A DNA stretch of 64,000 nt. It comes from Dugong dugon. Lineage: Eukaryota > Chordata > Mammalia > Sirenia > Dugongidae. Under the pieces are notes generated by a model. It was not told where the DNA came from, made no database searches, and was given only the letters and a program-made list of their open reading frames with translations. Of the stretch, positions 26,405 through 51,665 are shown one piece after another (position 1 is the stretch's first letter; each line of letters starts with the position of its first letter). The position numbers and the translations under genes were made by a program. The stretch lies in assembly GCA_030035585.1 (NCBI GenBank), contig CM057465.1, positions 5,369,501 through 5,433,500 of the forward strand, in the 5' to 3' direction.

Positions 26405-27350
26405 TTGTTGTTAAATTAAGGTGGAATTTACATAACATAAAATTAACCATTTTAGAATGAGTGATTCCAAGGCATTTAGTACATTTACGATGTGCAGCCA
26501 TCGCTGCCTCTCTAGTTTCAAAACATTTTCATCACCTCAAATAACACCGTGTATCCATTAAGCAGTCACTCCCTACCCCCACCCTCAGCCCCTGATAGCC
26601 GCCAGTTTGCGTTGTCTCTGTGGATTTGCCCGTTCTGGATTTCATATAAATGGAGTCGTTCGGTATGTGACCTTTTATGTCCAGCTGCTTTCACCCAGAG
26701 TCATGTTTTCAGGATCCATCCATGTTGTGGCGTGATTCAGGACTGCATTCCTTGTTATGGCTGAAGAGCATTTCATTGTATGGATGGACCACAGCTTGTC
26801 CGTTGTTATGGCTGAAGAGCATTTCATTGTACGGATGGACCACAGCTTGTCGTTGTTACGGCTGAAGAGCATTTCATTGTACGGATGGACCACAGCTTGT
26901 CGTTGTTATGGCTGAAGAGCATTTCATTGTACGGATGGACCACAGCTTGTCCGTTGTTACGGCTGAAGAGCATTTCATTGTACGGATAGACCACAGCTTG
27001 TCCGTTATTATGGCTGAAGAGCATTTCATTGTACGGATGGACCACAGCTTGTCTGTTCATCTATTGCTGGGCATCTGGGCTGTTCCCACTTTTGGTGACG
27101 GCAGGCAGTGCTGTTGTGGATGTGTGTGGGCATGTACTGGTTTAAGCACCCATCTTGAGTTCTTTTGGCTGTGTACTTAGGAGTCAAGTCGAGTTGCAAG
27201 GTCATATGTACCTCTGTGTAACCCCATCGGGGCATCTAGCATCACCTGTAACACCATGTCTGTATCATCCACTGCATCCCTGGCACGACCTTCCGTCGGC
27301 TCAGCTTGGTGATGTGACCACCCAGTTGATCGTTTGGACGCCGTGAGGTG
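26405..27350 (-). mobile_element. Old LINE-1 3' region, reversed
   Basis: 'gtggaatttacataacataa', 'cccgttctggatttcatata' and 'ggatccatccatgttgtggc' are reverse-strand phrases of old L1 3' untranslated regions. A 50-51 bp segment of it has been amplified (26759-27062). Confidence 0.75.
26759..27062. repeat. Minisatellite, six units of 50-51 bp, derived from L1
   Basis: Six units begin with 'ggctgaagagcatttcattg' at 26759, 26810, 26860, 26910, 26961 and 27012. They differ by one or two bases. The unit is an internal piece of the surrounding L1 relic, so the array arose after the insertion. Confidence 0.95.
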
Positions 27351-31254: not shown

Positions 31255-32932
31255 GTGAGTCCTGGCCCTCGGATGGGGTGGTGCCTGGGACCTCTTGTAA
31301 AGGACCTCACAGGGAGAACTTTGTGGGCCTGACATTGGGGCTGACCTTCTGGCAGCTTGTGTGTCTCCCTGTCCCCACCACCGTGGCCCCAGTGGGGAGC
31401 AAGGCCTGCTCCAGGGGGTGTTGAGAGGGTCATGGGGTCACCACAGTGGGGTGAACCTGCATCTTAGATCCAGGGGTCAGGGATGGTTCTGCAGGACACA
31501 GCATCGTGTCTCAGCAAGGCCACACGCAGTCAAGCAGCCGTGAGTCAGTTCCCAGGGGGGACGCTGTGCCTCCTGGCAGCTGCGTCTCTCCTTGGCCCCC
31601 ACTGGCCTGAAAGCTGCAGTTCCCGGGCCCAGCACCTCCAGCCCCGTGTCCCCTCGCACGATCTCAGAGGGCATGCCTCCAATTGGCTGGGACGGTGCTG
31701 TGCCCATAGAGGACAAGGGCCATTGGTCCCCGGCCCCAGCCCTGCTCCAGCAGCAGCCTGGACTTCTCTTCCATCCTAGCTCATGGTTACAGCCGTACAC
31801 GGGTAAATAAGTGCCACCATTTTTTTTAAATCATCAACTCTACGTTTAAGATAAACAGAAGCGGCGGGTTGAGGCCAGGCCAATTGGGGCAAGCTCACCC
31901 TCCACCTTTGGAGGTTCCCAATGCTCGTCAGCAAGGTAAAGGCTGCAGCCCGACCCGACCTTCAGAATTTAGGCAGCACCTGCTCTGTCCGGAGGGCACT
32001 GGGACCCGGCAGGCAGGGCTGGTCTGTGGAGCACCCAGAGCCCTGTAGAAGTCAGATGTCCTCTCCTGCACCCCACGTGTCACGTCCGGGTCTGCACGTG
32101 ACTATTTTAGGGGGCTGGGTGCACGGCTTTCTTCCAATTCTCCGACGAGCTGATGGGCCAAGAAAAGGTGGGGGAACTGCGGCCACATGTGTCAGGAGAG
32201 CAGAGTTAACCAGTCACTGCAGGCCAGCGGAGGTGGAGCTTGCCCATCCGCCGTCTCCACCCTACCCAGGAGGTGGTCACTTACTGGTCTGAGCCCACGT
32301 GACCAAGATTGATGTTGGTCTGTAGTGTTTGTTTGGGACAGAGTTTAAAAGTCAGTGTGCTTCCACGCATGTTGAACACGTGGGGAGACATAGCAGTGAA
32401 TGGAGCCCCTGAGCCCCGCCGTCTGTGTGCCTGGCGGGCTCTCTGGGACCCTCCAGACAGGACCCGGTGTGAGCAGGGAGCCCAGCACTGCAGGGCGGGG
32501 CCCAGGTGCCAGGTGGGGCTGTCACAGCGGGATTTCCTGTTATGGAAGCCAGCACACTCTGACGAGTCGCGCCAAGGAAAACGTAACCACATGTTCGGGT
32601 TCGTGTGGGCAGGAAGCAAACCCACAGGTCAGCAGGCTCAGCGTTCCCCGAAGGCGGCCCTTGTGCGGCGTGCCCTCTGCCGCTGGCCTTGGAGTCTGTG
32701 CTGATGACTTTAATCCTGCTTGGGCGAGATCAAGGGAGCGGCCACTTGCCATGGGTTGTCAGGAGTTCGTGATGCAGGTCTAGGAAGGCAGTTTGCCTCA
32801 GCATCATGCCTCATTCCCAGATTTTTCTAAGTGTTGCAGACTTGAGGAGCCTGTGTACCCTCACCTCCCTGGTTACCCCAAATCATCTGGGAGTCCTAGG
32901 CCAGCCAGCGAGCCAAGGGGCATATGGGGCAT
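31255..32932. other. Intron, GC-rich, no recognisable element
   Basis: Unique GC-rich sequence; no repeat was recognised before the minisatellite at 32933. Confidence 0.5.
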
Positions 32933-33117
32933 GGAGGCCTGGTGCCTGTCCCCAGGAGTGGAGGCCCGGTGCCTGTCCCCAGGAGTGGAGGCCCGGTGCC
33001 CGTCCCAGGAGTGGAGGCCCGGTGCCCGTCCCAGGAGTGGAGGCCCGGTGCCTGTCCCCACAGTGGAGGCCTGGTGCCCATCTGCAGGAGTAGAGGCCCA
33101 TGTGCCGGGGCAGAGGG
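32933..33117. repeat. Minisatellite, seven units of 26-27 bp
   Basis: Units start with 'ggaggcccggtgcc' (small changes) at 32933, 32960, 32987, 33013, 33039 and 33065, with a decayed seventh at about 33092. Units alternate 'cctgtccccaggagt' and 'cccgtcccaggagt'. Confidence 0.95.
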
Positions 33118-34777: not shown

Positions 34778-35409
34778 GCTGCGTGTATGCTGTTACTCCC
34801 ATCAGGTGGCTCTCAGTGAGAACTTTCCGGAAAACCCCCTTGTATCACCTTCTGTAGTACGTTCTCTTTTTATCTCTTTGGCCTTTACTGTTTTGTTTAT
34901 TCTTAAAAGTTAGATAAGTACTAAAATTCCTAAAAACTTAAAAATATTTTAATGCACTCTACCCTCTAGTGTCATGAACCGTTTCCCCCTGCATCTCCCC
35001 AGCTCCGTAGGTACTTCACTGAGGGAAATGATTATTTGTTACTTTAATTTGTGGAGAAAATACCACGGTCTTCTTTCCTCGGAGGCCCTCTGCCTCCAGC
35101 TGTCCGTACTCAGGAGGGTGGAGGAACCCTCACCCTTGCTGTCTGCCTGGGGTTTGGGGGGATTTAAAATGCTCCCCCACTCCGGAGGTTTCTGCTCTGT
35201 GAGCAGGGGTGGGGATCTCGGGTGGTGGCGCGGTGGGCCTGCCCAGCCAGGCTCTGGGCTGTGAGCTCGCCCCCTGCCCGCACATCTTCAGGTTTCTGTC
35301 TGCGGTGACACTGGGGACAGGACACCACCGTGTAGGCACCACCACCTGTGACCACACCCCGTCAGGGCTGAGGCTGCAAAACACTTAAGGCAATTCTTCA
35401 GCTGCCACT

Positions 35410-35535
35410 GCTTTGCCCTCCCAGAAGGCCCCCTGCTCTGTCCTCCCAGAGAGCCCCCTGCTGTGTTCCCCCGAAGGCCCACTCCTCTGTCCCCCCAGAG
35501 AACCCCCTGCTCTGTCCCCCCAGAAAGCCCACTTT
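35410..35535. repeat. Minisatellite of about 30 bp, four units
   Basis: Units read 'ctctgtcctcccagagagcc' with small changes, spaced about 30-34 bp. Confidence 0.8.
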
Positions 35536-46920: not shown

Positions 46921-47041
46921 AGTGGACCTCCCGTGCCCCAGAGGCTGGTGGGGGAGCCCTGTCTGTGGCCCGTGCTACTGCGCCGTCAGCCAAGGCTTCG
47001 ACCCCGACTGCAACAAGACCAGCGGGCAGTGCCAGTGCAAG
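46921..47041 (+). CDS. CELSR1: CELSR1 exon: start of laminin-type EGF region (donor is repeated downstream)
   Basis: This 121-bp exon follows 'tccccaacag'. One base completes the Arg codon, then it reads VDLPCPRGWWGSPVCGPCY and CAVSQGFDPDCNKTSGQCQ, ending CK in phase 0. The spacing of cysteines around GPCYC and GFDPDCNKTSGQCQC is that of a laminin-type EGF (LE) module; Asn-Lys-Thr is a glycosylation sequon. The donor 'aag|gtgggg' is the first of eight near-identical donors, because a 31-32 bp minisatellite starts within the last bases of this exon. The frame stays open through that whole array, so longer exon forms are possible. Confidence 0.95.
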
Positions 47042-47280
47042 GTGGGGGCACGGGCAGGCGTGCCAGTGCAAGGTGGGGGCGCGGGCGGGCGGGGCTGGTG
47101 CAAGGTGGGGGCGTGGGCGGGTGGGGCCGGTGCAAGGTGGGGGCGCGGGCGGGCGTGCCAGTGCAAGGTGGGGGCATGGGCGGGTGGGGCCGGTGCAAGG
47201 TGGGGGCGCGGGTGGGCGGGGCTGGTGCAAGGTGGGGGCGTGGGCGGGCGTGCCGGTGCAAGGTGGGGACACAGGCAGGA
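47030..47280. repeat. Minisatellite, eight units of 31-32 bp, starting in a coding exon
   Basis: Units carry 'gtgcaaggtggggg' and a GC-rich spacer. The first 'tgcaag|gtgggg' is the true exon end at 47041. GT dinucleotides equal to the donor fall at 47042, 47073, 47105, 47137, 47168, 47200, 47232 and 47263. Confidence 0.97.
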
Positions 47281-47339
47281 GGGAGGGCAGGGCTGTGCCC
47301 GGCACCCACCTCAGGTCCTGAGCCCGGCGAGCTCACAGG

Positions 47340-47475
47340 CATGCATGCGCGTGCACCACACTCACATGCAGCTACCTGTACACGCTCACACTCCTACATG
47401 TACACATGTGCACCCACACCACACAAATCTCCCTGTACACACACACACACACACAACCTACCTGTAGACACTTGT
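47340..47475. repeat. CA-rich array, left part
   Basis: Degenerate 'cacacacac' and 'cctgtacac' units. The right part continues at 48022 after the inserted LTR. Confidence 0.92.
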
Positions 47476-47509
47476 ATGTGCACACGCCACGCAGGTCTAC
47501 CGGTACATG

Positions 47510-48021
47510 TGTGTCCTGGTCATCTGGTGCTGCTCTAACAGAAATACCACAAGTGGATGTTTTCAACAAAGAGAAGTCTATTCTCTCACAGTCCGGTAGG
47601 CTGCAAGTCCAAATTCAGGGCGTCAGCTCCAGAGGAAGGCTTTCTCTGTCGGCTCTGGAGGAAAGTGCTTGTCATCAGTCTTCCCTTGGTCTGGGAGCAT
47701 CTCAGCGCAGGAACCTCAGGTCCAAAGGACACGCTCTGCTCCCGGCACTGCCTTCTTGGTGGTATGAGGTCCCCAACTCTCTGCCCGCTTCCCTTTCCTT
47801 TTATCTCTTGTAAGATAACAGGCGGTGCGGGCCACACCCCAGGGAAACTCCCTTTACATCGGATCAGGGATGTGACCTGGGTAAGGGTGTTACAACCCCA
47901 CCCTAATCCTCTTGAACATAAAATTACAATCACAAAATGGAGGACAACCACACAATACTGGGAATCATGGCCCAGGCAAATCGATACACACATTTTTGGG
48001 GGCATAATTCAGTCCATGACA
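47510..48021 (-). mobile_element. MaLR-type solo LTR inside the CA-rich array
   Basis: It starts 'tgtgtcctggtcatctggtg' and ends 'cataattcagtccatgaca', flanked by the 5-bp duplication 'acatg' (47505-47509 and 48022-48026). The array on both sides shows that the LTR landed within it. There are no viral genes. Confidence 0.86.
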
Positions 48022-48420
48022 ACATGCATGCACGTACATGTACTTGTACACATGTGCACACACACCACACGAATGTACCTGTATACACACACACACTCTA
48101 CCTGTATACTTTTGTACGTGCACACACAAGTCTACCTGTACACATGTGCACACACACCACATGTATCTACCTGTAGACATATGTACATGCACACACCACA
48201 CAAGTCTACCCGTACACATACACACTCAGCTGCACACATACCTGCCTGTACACACACACACACACATCTCCCTGTACACACATTCACACACACAGGTCCT
48301 GAGCCCAGAGACATCAGTGTGTACACACACACACACAGACACCCCCAAGTCGGCCTGTACCCATGCACACTCAGAGGCACTTGCACACACACATCTGTAC
48401 ACACACACACGTGTTTATGC
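48022..48420. repeat. CA-rich array, right part
   Basis: Units such as 'ctgtacacatgtgcacacac' and 'cacaccacac' repeat with a period of about 40-45 bp. Confidence 0.92.
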
Positions 48421-49175
48421 TCAGCTGTGTTTTAGGCTCTGCTGCCCACCCGTGTGCTCTGTGATGCCTGTACACACCGGGCTGGTTTTTGTGTAAACTG
48501 GTTCAGACCCTGGGACGTAGACTCCCGCCCCCTCATCAGCCCGACACCCGATCTGTAACAGAGACGCGGTCACTGCTGTGAAGGCTGGCTCTTCCCGGGT
48601 GTCAGTCGCAGTGCTCCCTGTGGGCCATTTCCTGGTCTGTTATCTGCCTGGCTTGATGACGGCTGCAGTTGAAAACCATGAAAAGCGTTCCCCGACTCCC
48701 ACCCTGCCAGTTCGGCCGCTACACAGCTGTGCAGCACGGAAGACTGCTTCTCACCATCTCTGAATGTGCTTGCGTGTTCTCTTCCAAATTGCACAGCAGC
48801 CACCCCCTCGACCTCATGCACTGTCACTCACCCTGAGCATCACTGTATCCGCGTCTGCCGTCGAGCGGCAGTCACTTGAAGCCGCACAGATGGTCTCACG
48901 GTAGCTACAGCACTTGGCTGGGGACACCGCTGCCCCACAGACGTGGGGCTGACCCAGGAAAGGCGGTGGTCTTTGGGGCAACTCGGACACTTCCGAGGTG
49001 TCTGTTTAAATCAGAAATGTCCCAGGTGCCGCAAGGCAGGTACAGATCGAGATGTGACTTGTCTCCTGACGTGCTGAAATGAAACATTAAAACGGTGGAG
49101 GAGGGCCAGGCTCCGGCGGGCCACACAGAGCGGGGTTACAGCGTCACTGGGCAGCAGGCAGGAGAGACCAGAACC

Positions 49176-49336
49176 CAACCCAAACCTGTTGCCTCGAGTT
49201 GATTCCGACTCACAGCAACCCTACAGGACAGAGCAGAACTGCCCCATAGGGTTTCCAGGGAGCAGCTGGTGGATTCCAACTGCCGACCTTTTGGTTAGCA
49301 GCCGAGCTCTTAACCACTGCGCCACCAGGGCTCTGG
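49176..49336 (-). mobile_element. AfroSINE
   Basis: It reads 'ctgttgcctcgagttgattc' to 'cactgcgccaccagggctct', short form and little diverged. Confidence 0.9.
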
Positions 49337-49489
49337 AGGGAAATGTTCCCATGCCTTTTTTTTCATCAAAAATGACAGAAAATGCAGAAAATAAAATTCA
49401 CCACAGTCTGACCTCCTGGGGTATTGCTAACATTTTACTCTCCTTCCCATCTTCCAAACGTCACAACGTCCCACGAAGGTGGTGTCACA

Positions 49490-49605
49490 GCATCACACAC
49501 AGGTGACATCATAATGTCATGCACAGATGGCATCACAATGTCACACGCAGGTGACGTCACCCCACAACACAGGTGACATCACAGCATCACATGCAGTTGA
49601 CGTCC
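49490..49605. repeat. Small tandem array of about 34 bp with CRE-like sites
   Basis: Units read 'ggtgacatcacagcatcaca' with changes; one carries the full palindrome TGACGTCA (49552-49559) and the last 'ttgacgtcctg'. Confidence 0.8.
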
Positions 49606-50142
49606 TGCTATGGATAGAGTCTGGATCCCTGTAGACCATGGGAACCTGGACGTGGGCCCTCGAATCTGCCCAAACCACCGCTTGCTGGTTTTGGGGAGAA
49701 GGGCCCGGCCAAGGGCAGGGTGGCTGGTAAATGCCGAGCCGGGCGTAAACCGGGCCTCTCTGAGCCAGAGCACATTCTCTGGACCGTCCCCTGGCCTGCC
49801 AGTGATGGACATTGAGGTTGTTCCTTGTTTTTGACAATTTCAAAGAGAAAAACGCCACAAGGGCCATCCTCATCCTTAAGTCTCCGTTTGAGTCTCGGAT
49901 CCTTTCTGGGATAGACAGGAAGGTGGCCCAAGGGGAGCATTTGCTACCAAATGAGAGAGGTCTGGCTCCAGGCCGGGCTCGGGGCATGTGGGCAAGGGAG
50001 CTGAGAGGCCCCGGGGTCAGGCTGGTCGCTGCCAAGGGAGACCGTGCACGGGGACGAGTGCTGAGGTCGCCTGGGGACGTCCTTCCAGGAGTGAGCGTGG
50101 GGGTACGGGGGGTCACGTGCTCCTCTTTTCTCCCCTCTGCAG

Positions 50143-50326
50143 GAGAACCACTACAAGCCCCCTGGCCAGGACGCCTGCCTGCCGTGCGACTGCTTCCCGC
50201 ACGGCGCCCACAGCCGCGCCTGCGATGCGGACACCGGGCAGTGCGCCTGCAAGCCGGGCGTCGTCGGGCGCCAGTGCAACCGCTGTGACAACCCCTTTGC
50301 CGAGGTCACCGCGCTGGGCTGCGAAG
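50143..50326 (+). CDS. CELSR1: CELSR1 exon: laminin-type EGF module
   Basis: This 184-bp exon lies between 'cccctctgcag' and a 'gtcggc' donor. It reads ENHYKPPGQDACLPCDCFPH, then CDADTGQCACKPGVVGRQCN and RCDNPFAEVTALGCE, leaving one base. The CxCx-GxxCxxC pattern is a full laminin EGF module. The donor is weak: positions +3 to +6 are c-g-g-c instead of a/g-a-g-t. A TG-rich array begins about 60 bases further on. The length is not a multiple of three, so skipping would shift the frame. Confidence 0.95.
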
Positions 50327-50389
50327 GTCGGCGTGGCTCCTGGGCCCCTCAGGCCACGTCACGGGGGCAGGCTGCTGGGGCGGCGTGTC

Positions 50390-51665
50390 CACGTGTGCAT
50401 GTGGGTGTCTGTGTGTGTCTGTGTCCCTGCGTGCTTGTGTCTGTGTGCATGTGTCTGTGCATGTCTGCATGTCTACATGTGTGCATATGGGTGTCTGTGT
50501 GTGTCGGTGGGTCTGCATGTGCATCTGCGTGTATGTGGGTGTCTGCGTGCATTTGCGCGTGTGTGTTGTGTGTCTGCGTGTGTGTTGTGTGTCTGCGTGT
50601 ATGTATGTGTCTGCGTGCATGTGTGTGTATGTGTGTTGTGTGTCTGTGTGTGCCCGTGTGTCTGCGTGTGTGTATGTGTGTGTCTGCGTGCATGTGCGTG
50701 TATGTGTGTTGTGTGTCTGTGTGTGCCCGTGTGTCTGCGTGTGTGTATGTCTGTGCATGTATGTGTGTTGTGTGTCTGCGTGTATGCCTGCGTGTGTGTA
50801 TGTGTCTGCGTGCATGTGTGTATGTGTGTGTTGTGTGTCTGTGTGTGCCCGTGTGTCTGCGTGTGTATGTCTGTGTCTGCGTGTATGTGTGTTGTGTGTC
50901 TGCATGTATGCCTGCGTGTGTGTATGTGTCTGCGTGCATGTGTGTGTATGTGTGTTGTGTGTCTGTGTGTGCCCGTGTGTCTGCGTGTGTGTATGTCTGT
51001 GTCTGCGTGTATGTGTGTTGTGTGTCTGCGTGTATGCCTGCGTGTGTGTATGTGTCTGCGTGCATGTGTGTGTGTGTGTGTTGTGTGTCTGTGTGTGCCC
51101 GTGTGTCTGCGTGTGTGTATGTCTGTGTCTGCGTGTATGTGTGTTGTGTGTCTGCATGTATGCCTGCGTGTATGTGTCTGCGTGCATGTGTGTGTGTGTG
51201 TTGTGTGTCTGTGTGTGCCCGTGTGTCTGCGTGTGTGTGTCTGCGTGTATGCCTGCATGTGTGTATGTGTCTGCATGCATGTGTGTGTATGTGTGTTGTG
51301 TGTCTGCATGTATGCCTGCGTGTGTGTATGTGTGTGTCTGTGTGCATGTGTATGTGTTGTGTGTGTGTGTCTGCGTTTGTGTATGTGTGTGTCTGCATGC
51401 ATGTGCGTGTGTGTTGTGTGTCTGCGTGTATGCCTGTGTGTGTATGTGTCTGTGTGCATGTGTGTGTGTGTTGTGTGTCTGCATGTATGCCTGCGTGTGT
51501 GTATGTGTGTGTCTGCGTGCATGTATGTGTGTTGTGTGTCTGCGTGTGTCTGCATGCATGCGCATGTGTGTCGCGTGTCTGTGTGTGCCCATTTCTGCGT
51601 GTGCGTGCTGTGTGTGTGTGTCTGCGTGCTGTACACGTGTGTGTGCTGCATCTGTCTGCACGTGC
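50390..51665. repeat. TG-rich minisatellite with 120-126 bp higher-order unit
   Basis: About 1.27 kb of TGTGTCTGCGTG-type units. The marker 'tgcccgtgtgtctgcg' lies at 50651, 50724, 50846, 50970, 51096 and 51216, which gives a higher-order period of 120-126 bp in the centre. Stop codons are rare in several frames, so open frames of 400-590 codons (Cys-Val or His-Thr repeats) arise and are not genes. Confidence 0.96.

Follow-up and report, generated by a model that had tools for sequence, protein, structure and literature searches.

Which of several identical 5' splice sites is used when a tandem repeat copies the end of a coding exon together with its donor, and do the extra copies contribute anything to the protein? 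This question is raised by an exon of CELSR1 within a 64-kb window (the whole stretch of DNA analysed, C7:5369501-5433500, in a genome of 3.158 Gb in 196 contigs). The features of the locus are as follows, with a slash marking the splice junction in all motifs and the donors numbered D1 to D8 by their distance from 47041.

46921..47041, + strand: CELSR1 exon, laminin-EGF-like region, ending ...SGQCQCK, native end at 47041 (blastp against CELSR2 and CELSR3 of the same genome; gap-free match to PDB 8vy2)
47022..47283, + strand: minisatellite across the exon-intron border, unit of 31/32 bases, 95-base higher-order repeat (TRF, unit listing)
47035..47047, + strand: D1, GTGCAAG/GTGGGG, cut after 47041, +0, native (paralogue exon ends, protein match)
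47066..47078, + strand: D2, cut after 47072, +31, frameshift
47098..47110, + strand: D3, cut after 47104, +63, in frame, 21 added residues, one added cysteine
47130..47142, + strand: D4, cut after 47136, +95, frameshift
47161..47173, + strand: D5, cut after 47167, +126, in frame, 42 added residues, three added cysteines
47193..47205, + strand: D6, cut after 47199, +158, frameshift
47225..47237, + strand: D7, cut after 47231, +190, frameshift
47256..47268, + strand: D8, cut after 47262, +221, frameshift, followed by the probable old intron start
50143..50325, + strand: next CELSR1 exon (ENHYK...), in a phase that fits D1, D3 and D5; 3' end at ~50325 read from the sequence

The original prediction placed eight equal donors at these offsets, in a repeat unit that includes the exon end, and both parts held: a script scan of the 64-kb window located all eight as GCAAG/GTGGG matches on the + strand, and TRF and a listing of the units agree on a minisatellite that spans the border. 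TRF reports the array as 47022-47268 at period 32 and as 47022-47283 at period 95, and a period of 63 fits too. The donor spacings of 31, 32, 32, 31, 32, 32 and 31 bases form a 95-base higher-order repeat, within which the units are one indel and several substitutions apart. Each unit covers the final ~20 exon bases and the initial intron bases; since the first copy consists of exactly this exon end and intron start, the founder was the exon-intron border itself. The eighth copy leads into what reads as the probable old intron (GTGGGGACACAGG). Positions -7 to +6 of the donor motif GTGCAAG/GTGGGG are identical in all eight copies, and D8 differs at +7. These 13 columns are thus invariant in 8/8 copies and the 12 variable columns among the 32 compared all lie outside them (naive hypergeometric P 0.0002); this falls short of proof that selection maintains the core, since most variable columns reflect CpG transitions or follow from the 31/32-base indel, and the core itself contains no CpG.

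Three lines of evidence identify D1 as the native donor. In CELSR2 and CELSR3 of this genome (L002 and L003) the homologous exons end in the same TGCAAG, followed by the donors GTAACA and GTGTGT, respectively. TRF found no array in 3.1 kb round the CELSR2 exon, and round the CELSR3 exon its sole array lies ~1.2 kb downstream of the exon end. Splicing 47041 to 50143 yields a product that matches PDB 8vy2 chain A (CELSR1) at 101/101 residues, gap-free across ...CQCK/EN.YK, so that the solved CELSR1 has no insert at the position of the array. Exon 46921-47041 ends with a whole codon and the next exon opens GAG AAC CAC; the two exons flank the array as predicted, with the 50143 start in the right phase. 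Together, the paralogue exon ends, the protein match and the codon phase indicate that D1 is ancestral.

Donor-spanning minisatellites are a kind already known, from human IFI6 and ABCA7. The CELSR1 array shares two of their defining features, in that its unit holds a genuine exon 5' splice site and its first copy is the native donor, as the paralogue ends and the protein match show. What is new here is the CELSR1 member, along with arrays in NOTCH1, TERT, MCM3AP and COL20A1 of the same genome. The IFI6 repeat unit is 12 bp, a multiple of three, so its extra donors fall in frame, whereas the 31/32 bp CELSR1 unit mostly shifts the frame. Like CELSR1, IFI6 carries an exon-end minisatellite that offers several alternative donors, and the accessible part of PMC4526556 describes two downstream repeat units that serve as donors; IFI6 is also mentioned in PMC3618361. 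For ABCA7, the accessible portion of PMC5954066 describes a 25 bp VNTR in intron 18 that opens with the exon 18 donor and has alleles of 298 to 10678 bp. Use of its second copy retains one unit, a 25-base frameshifting insertion, at 2 ± 1% independently of VNTR length, and longer VNTRs go with more skipping of the next exon and lower expression (PMC5954066, same portion). As far as that text goes, the ABCA7 array resembles that of CELSR1 in starting at the native first donor, in having one donor per unit, in being GC-rich and in having its second copy out of frame. It differs in being polymorphic, with a unit number from 12 to about 427, and in having been studied for RNA, expression and disease, whereas the CELSR1 array has 8 units of 31/32 bp and is known from one assembly; its repeat also starts at the GT, whereas the CELSR1 unit takes in about 20 exon bases. 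Among available models for CELSR1, ABCA7 is the best by analogy, and would predict a dominant D1, a minor leak to D2 and possible effects on the next exon.

Other known configurations fit less well. A mucin-like coding minisatellite is ruled out by units of 31/32 bases, which are not a multiple of three, and by the solved CELSR1 without insert. GYNGYN short tandem donors pair two GTs only a few bases from each other, and the CELSR1 spacing of 31-32 bases excludes that class as well. Zhuo et al. (2007) are said to have described introns born from tandem arrays, a process that likewise multiplies splice signals by tandem duplication but reportedly needs acceptors in the units too; by simple patterns, 47022-47283 holds eight donor-like sites and no acceptor-like ones. 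Two further arrays in the window, at 32932-33116 and 35408-35533, were considered as acceptor-multiplying arrays and rejected: their distances to the closest exon, among 20 taken, are 785 and 1328 bases, and a simple pattern finds no acceptor-like site in either. No description of the CELSR1 array was found in literature on CELSR1 with elephant, including the accessible part of PMC11039983, and minisatellite literature joined with NOTCH1 and with MCM3AP returned nothing, both searches covering largely literature outside subscription. In its accessible part, the main text of a survey of human minisatellite VNTRs (PMC8096271) lacks the word 'splice', though it has 'differential splicing'.

With ABCA7 as the model, the CELSR1 array is probably a mostly neutral donor-spanning minisatellite in which D1 dominates and a minor leak mainly shifts the frame. 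A tandem array would have been born from the final ~20 exon bases and the first ~12 intron bases, and because the founder unit spans the border, every copy bears a 5' splice site. The spliceosome would mainly take D1, whose exon is the first defined and the shortest, and a small leak, mostly to D2, would produce frameshifted RNA that is degraded. The array would thus be tolerated without selection for protein isoforms, while longer alleles could, like the ABCA7 array, reduce output or interfere with the following exon. Dominance of D1 is not automatic. D1 to D8 score equally on donor-site base frequencies, so the donor sequence alone fails to explain why D1 would win. According to the accessible part of PMC5585400, of two neighbouring donors the intron-proximal one can be preferred, and the choice depends also on SR protein sites. 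Two counterpoints come from the known relatives: downstream copies can be used productively in IFI6, and events round the ABCA7 array are not small, since exon 19 was skipped at 12 ± 6% in cell lines and, at the highest, at 45 ± 10% in one region of the brain (PMC5954066, accessible portion).

These ABCA7 figures bear on a second reading, in which array length, perhaps different from one individual to another, affects how much CELSR1 is made or how often the following exon is skipped. We consider this unlikely, although it finds a precedent in the ABCA7 VNTR, whose length tracks exon 19 skipping and reduced expression in the same accessible text, and the sense strand of the CELSR1 array does contain four G-quadruplex-type clusters of G runs. 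At 262 bp, however, the array is short compared with 298 bp for the smallest ABCA7 allele seen in that text, and predicted RNA folding of 46991-47290 is no better than that of shuffled sequences (z -0.35; 68/200 at least as stable). On this folding result, RNA structure as a means of hiding donors was also rejected.

Arrays at other exon ends in the same genome show what multiplied donors can and cannot yield. Searched against the genome as DNA, the CELSR1 exon plus array gave six matches: CELSR1 itself, CELSR2, CELSR3, NOTCH1 (L004) and two weak GC-rich matches (L005 and L006). Three more arrays were found among the donor-pattern clusters described below.

C13:1652332-1652623 (L004:1482-1773): NOTCH1 exon end TGCAA/GTGAG, eight copies
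L046:1503-1695: TERT exon end ..WLRRSP/ and eight (C)AG/GTGAG donors in a degenerate array of 18-46 base units
C1 about 228696618-228696837 and beyond (L008), minus strand: MCM3AP exon end, then an array of >600 bases with 13 AAG/GTGAGG donors and further GTAGGG ones
C2:804890-805029 (L062), minus strand: COL20A1 exon end, five donors 33 bases apart

As in CELSR1, an exon end and its donor stand in tandem 5 to 13 times in these four genes; unlike CELSR1, each array has its own unit sequence and gene-specific consequences for the frame, with the NOTCH1 unit similar enough to that of CELSR1 for detection by similarity. The NOTCH1 locus was identified by its spliced protein, which matches solved NOTCH1 at 135/135 residues. 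Its frame beyond D1 reads TGC AAG TGA, so that use of any of the seven further donors introduces a stop. The exon end encodes QGGGGRC where the PDB sequence has QRAEGQC; that the array has overwritten codons at the exon end is plausible but unproven. TERT was recognised by a PDB match that runs up to ...WLRRSP (E 6e-42) and by Pfam Telomerase_RBD. Its donors lie at 0, 28, 74, 102, 138, 156, 174 and 192; the +28 donor is open but frameshifting, and the remaining extras meet a stop. The MCM3AP exon has no PDB match and was assigned by Pfam MCM3AP_GANP (E 1.8e-15), which extends up to the final residue before the donor. Its first in-frame stop comes 24 bases beyond D1, and all of the later copies (12/12) lie past a stop.

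NOTCH1, TERT and MCM3AP are important genes. Since none of their counted downstream donors gives an open in-frame product, D1 must serve enough transcripts in all three; that D1 is so used, out of 8 to 13 near-identical donors, is inferred from constraint. With every counted extra donor leading to a stop or frameshift, these three show that arrays of this kind exist without any isoform benefit, which makes an isoform function unnecessary to account for the CELSR1 array. COL20A1 behaves differently. Its five donors are all in frame, each adding 11 residues (GEGRGPPPRGP), with the phase of the next exon read from the sequence. The array exon alone has no match in Pfam or PDB, and the gene assignment follows from its neighbours: the joined exons match VWA (E 5.8e-27), and their fn3 part matches collagen XX (PDB 5kf4, E 2.6e-19), while the top-scoring PDB entry for these exons is collagen VI alpha 3, via VWA domains. 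Judged by its reading frame, COL20A1 is a better candidate than CELSR1 for in-frame isoforms.

The original prediction had gone further for CELSR1 and proposed that the +63 and +126 donors, if used, would add 21 or 42 glycine-rich residues to the laminin EGF region. Its arithmetic is right: the two inserts are in frame and open and end WCK and CQCK, recreating the Cys-Lys end of the native exon, and the other five extras shift the frame. In-frame use of extra repeat donors also has a precedent in the IFI6 isoforms, which employ two of them (PMC4526556, accessible part), and the COL20A1 array in this genome is wholly in frame. Even so, functional isoforms of this kind are very improbable. The exon frame is indeed open past all eight donors, up to a stop at 47465-47467, and the array is free of stop triplets in every forward frame. 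When the 95-base unit was shuffled with its dinucleotides preserved, all three frames were open in 2000/2000 shuffles, so the open frame is an effect of composition, carries no information and is ruled out as a sign of coding use. Two of the seven extra donors are in frame, near the chance rate of 1/3. Each insert brings an odd number of cysteines into a disulphide-rich module, and either one lowers the Pfam EGF_laminin score, from 47.7 bits to 40.5 with 21 and 44.1 with 42 added residues. Three of the four other arrays (NOTCH1, TERT and MCM3AP) cannot yield such isoforms with their counted donors, and the copy used in ABCA7 is the second one (accessible portion of PMC5954066), which in CELSR1 (+31) is out of frame. 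What stands of the original reading is the multiplication of the donor by a border-spanning minisatellite; the longer isoforms are possible yet unsupported.

An assembly or collapse artefact in this GC-rich stretch is the least credible explanation, given that units set apart by an indel and substitutions fall into a 95-base higher-order pattern within a contiguous genome, although copy number in GC-rich arrays is error-prone and, with a single assembly, that of CELSR1 could be off by a few.

Two pattern searches of the genome, each for three close copies of a donor motif, place these arrays in a wider setting. CAGGTRAG x3 occurs at 632 places, against 103 for the reversed and 1128 for the dinucleotide-preserving control; AAGGTGRG x3 occurs at 178 places, against 342 and 115, respectively. 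The first pattern is thus below its dinucleotide-preserving control and the second below its reversed control. Counted by eye as array loci among those listed, CAGGTRAG gives 28 on C1 and C2 versus 10 in the control, and AAGGTGRG gives 24 on C1-C10 (CELSR1 included) versus 12. Genome-wide enrichment of donor arrays is therefore mixed by places and two- to threefold by loci listed, and we do not claim it as proof. Besides CELSR1, 34 distinct clusters among those listed were examined (22 AAGGTGRG, 12 CAGGTRAG), yielding 50 upstream open frames of at least 20 codons, 23 of which were compared with Pfam, some of them over part of their length. At least three of the 34 clusters start at the end of a coding exon (TERT, MCM3AP and COL20A1); the figure is a lower bound because the Pfam scan covered 23/50 frames, and the remaining frames among those 23 had no match.

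These cases lead us to suggest, tentatively and with the balance still somewhat against it, that donor-spanning minisatellites are a recurrent mutational class in mammals. G-rich 5' splice sites would seed arrays of 5-13 copies even where the extra copies are destructive, and the arrays would persist thanks to a dependable preference of the spliceosome for the first donor, their length setting a small heritable tax on output. If so, each array is a natural experiment in 5' splice site choice. The choice of one among equally good adjacent donors has long been a question, addressed for the most part through engineered duplications; here, five genes of one genome provide natural sets of 5 to 13 near-identical donors, and in three of these genes a stop or frameshift reports a wrong choice. 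Exon-end VNTRs, which in ABCA7 are linked to Alzheimer risk, merit a systematic search in other genes and species.

Several minor observations were made along the way. Elsewhere in the window, TRF finds TG-rich arrays of >1 kb in all at 50385-51660, beginning ~60 bases after exon 50143-50325, and a 51-base unit in six copies with 95% matches in mid-intron at 26752-27057. A P53 Pfam search of the genome gave 11 matches, which we read as three multi-exon p53-family genes and one retrocopy, the sole one among the 11, a broken TP53-like sequence with a stop at C23:29147664-29148022. Elephants carry some 20 TP53 copies, so the elephant origin assumed in the original prediction is doubtful unless the search overlooked copies. 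The Ifi-6-16 family has six matches in the genome, and those at C14:103544192-103567469 stand as two mirror-image pairs with equal scores, an arrangement that suggests an inverted duplication (palindrome) of interferon-induced genes.
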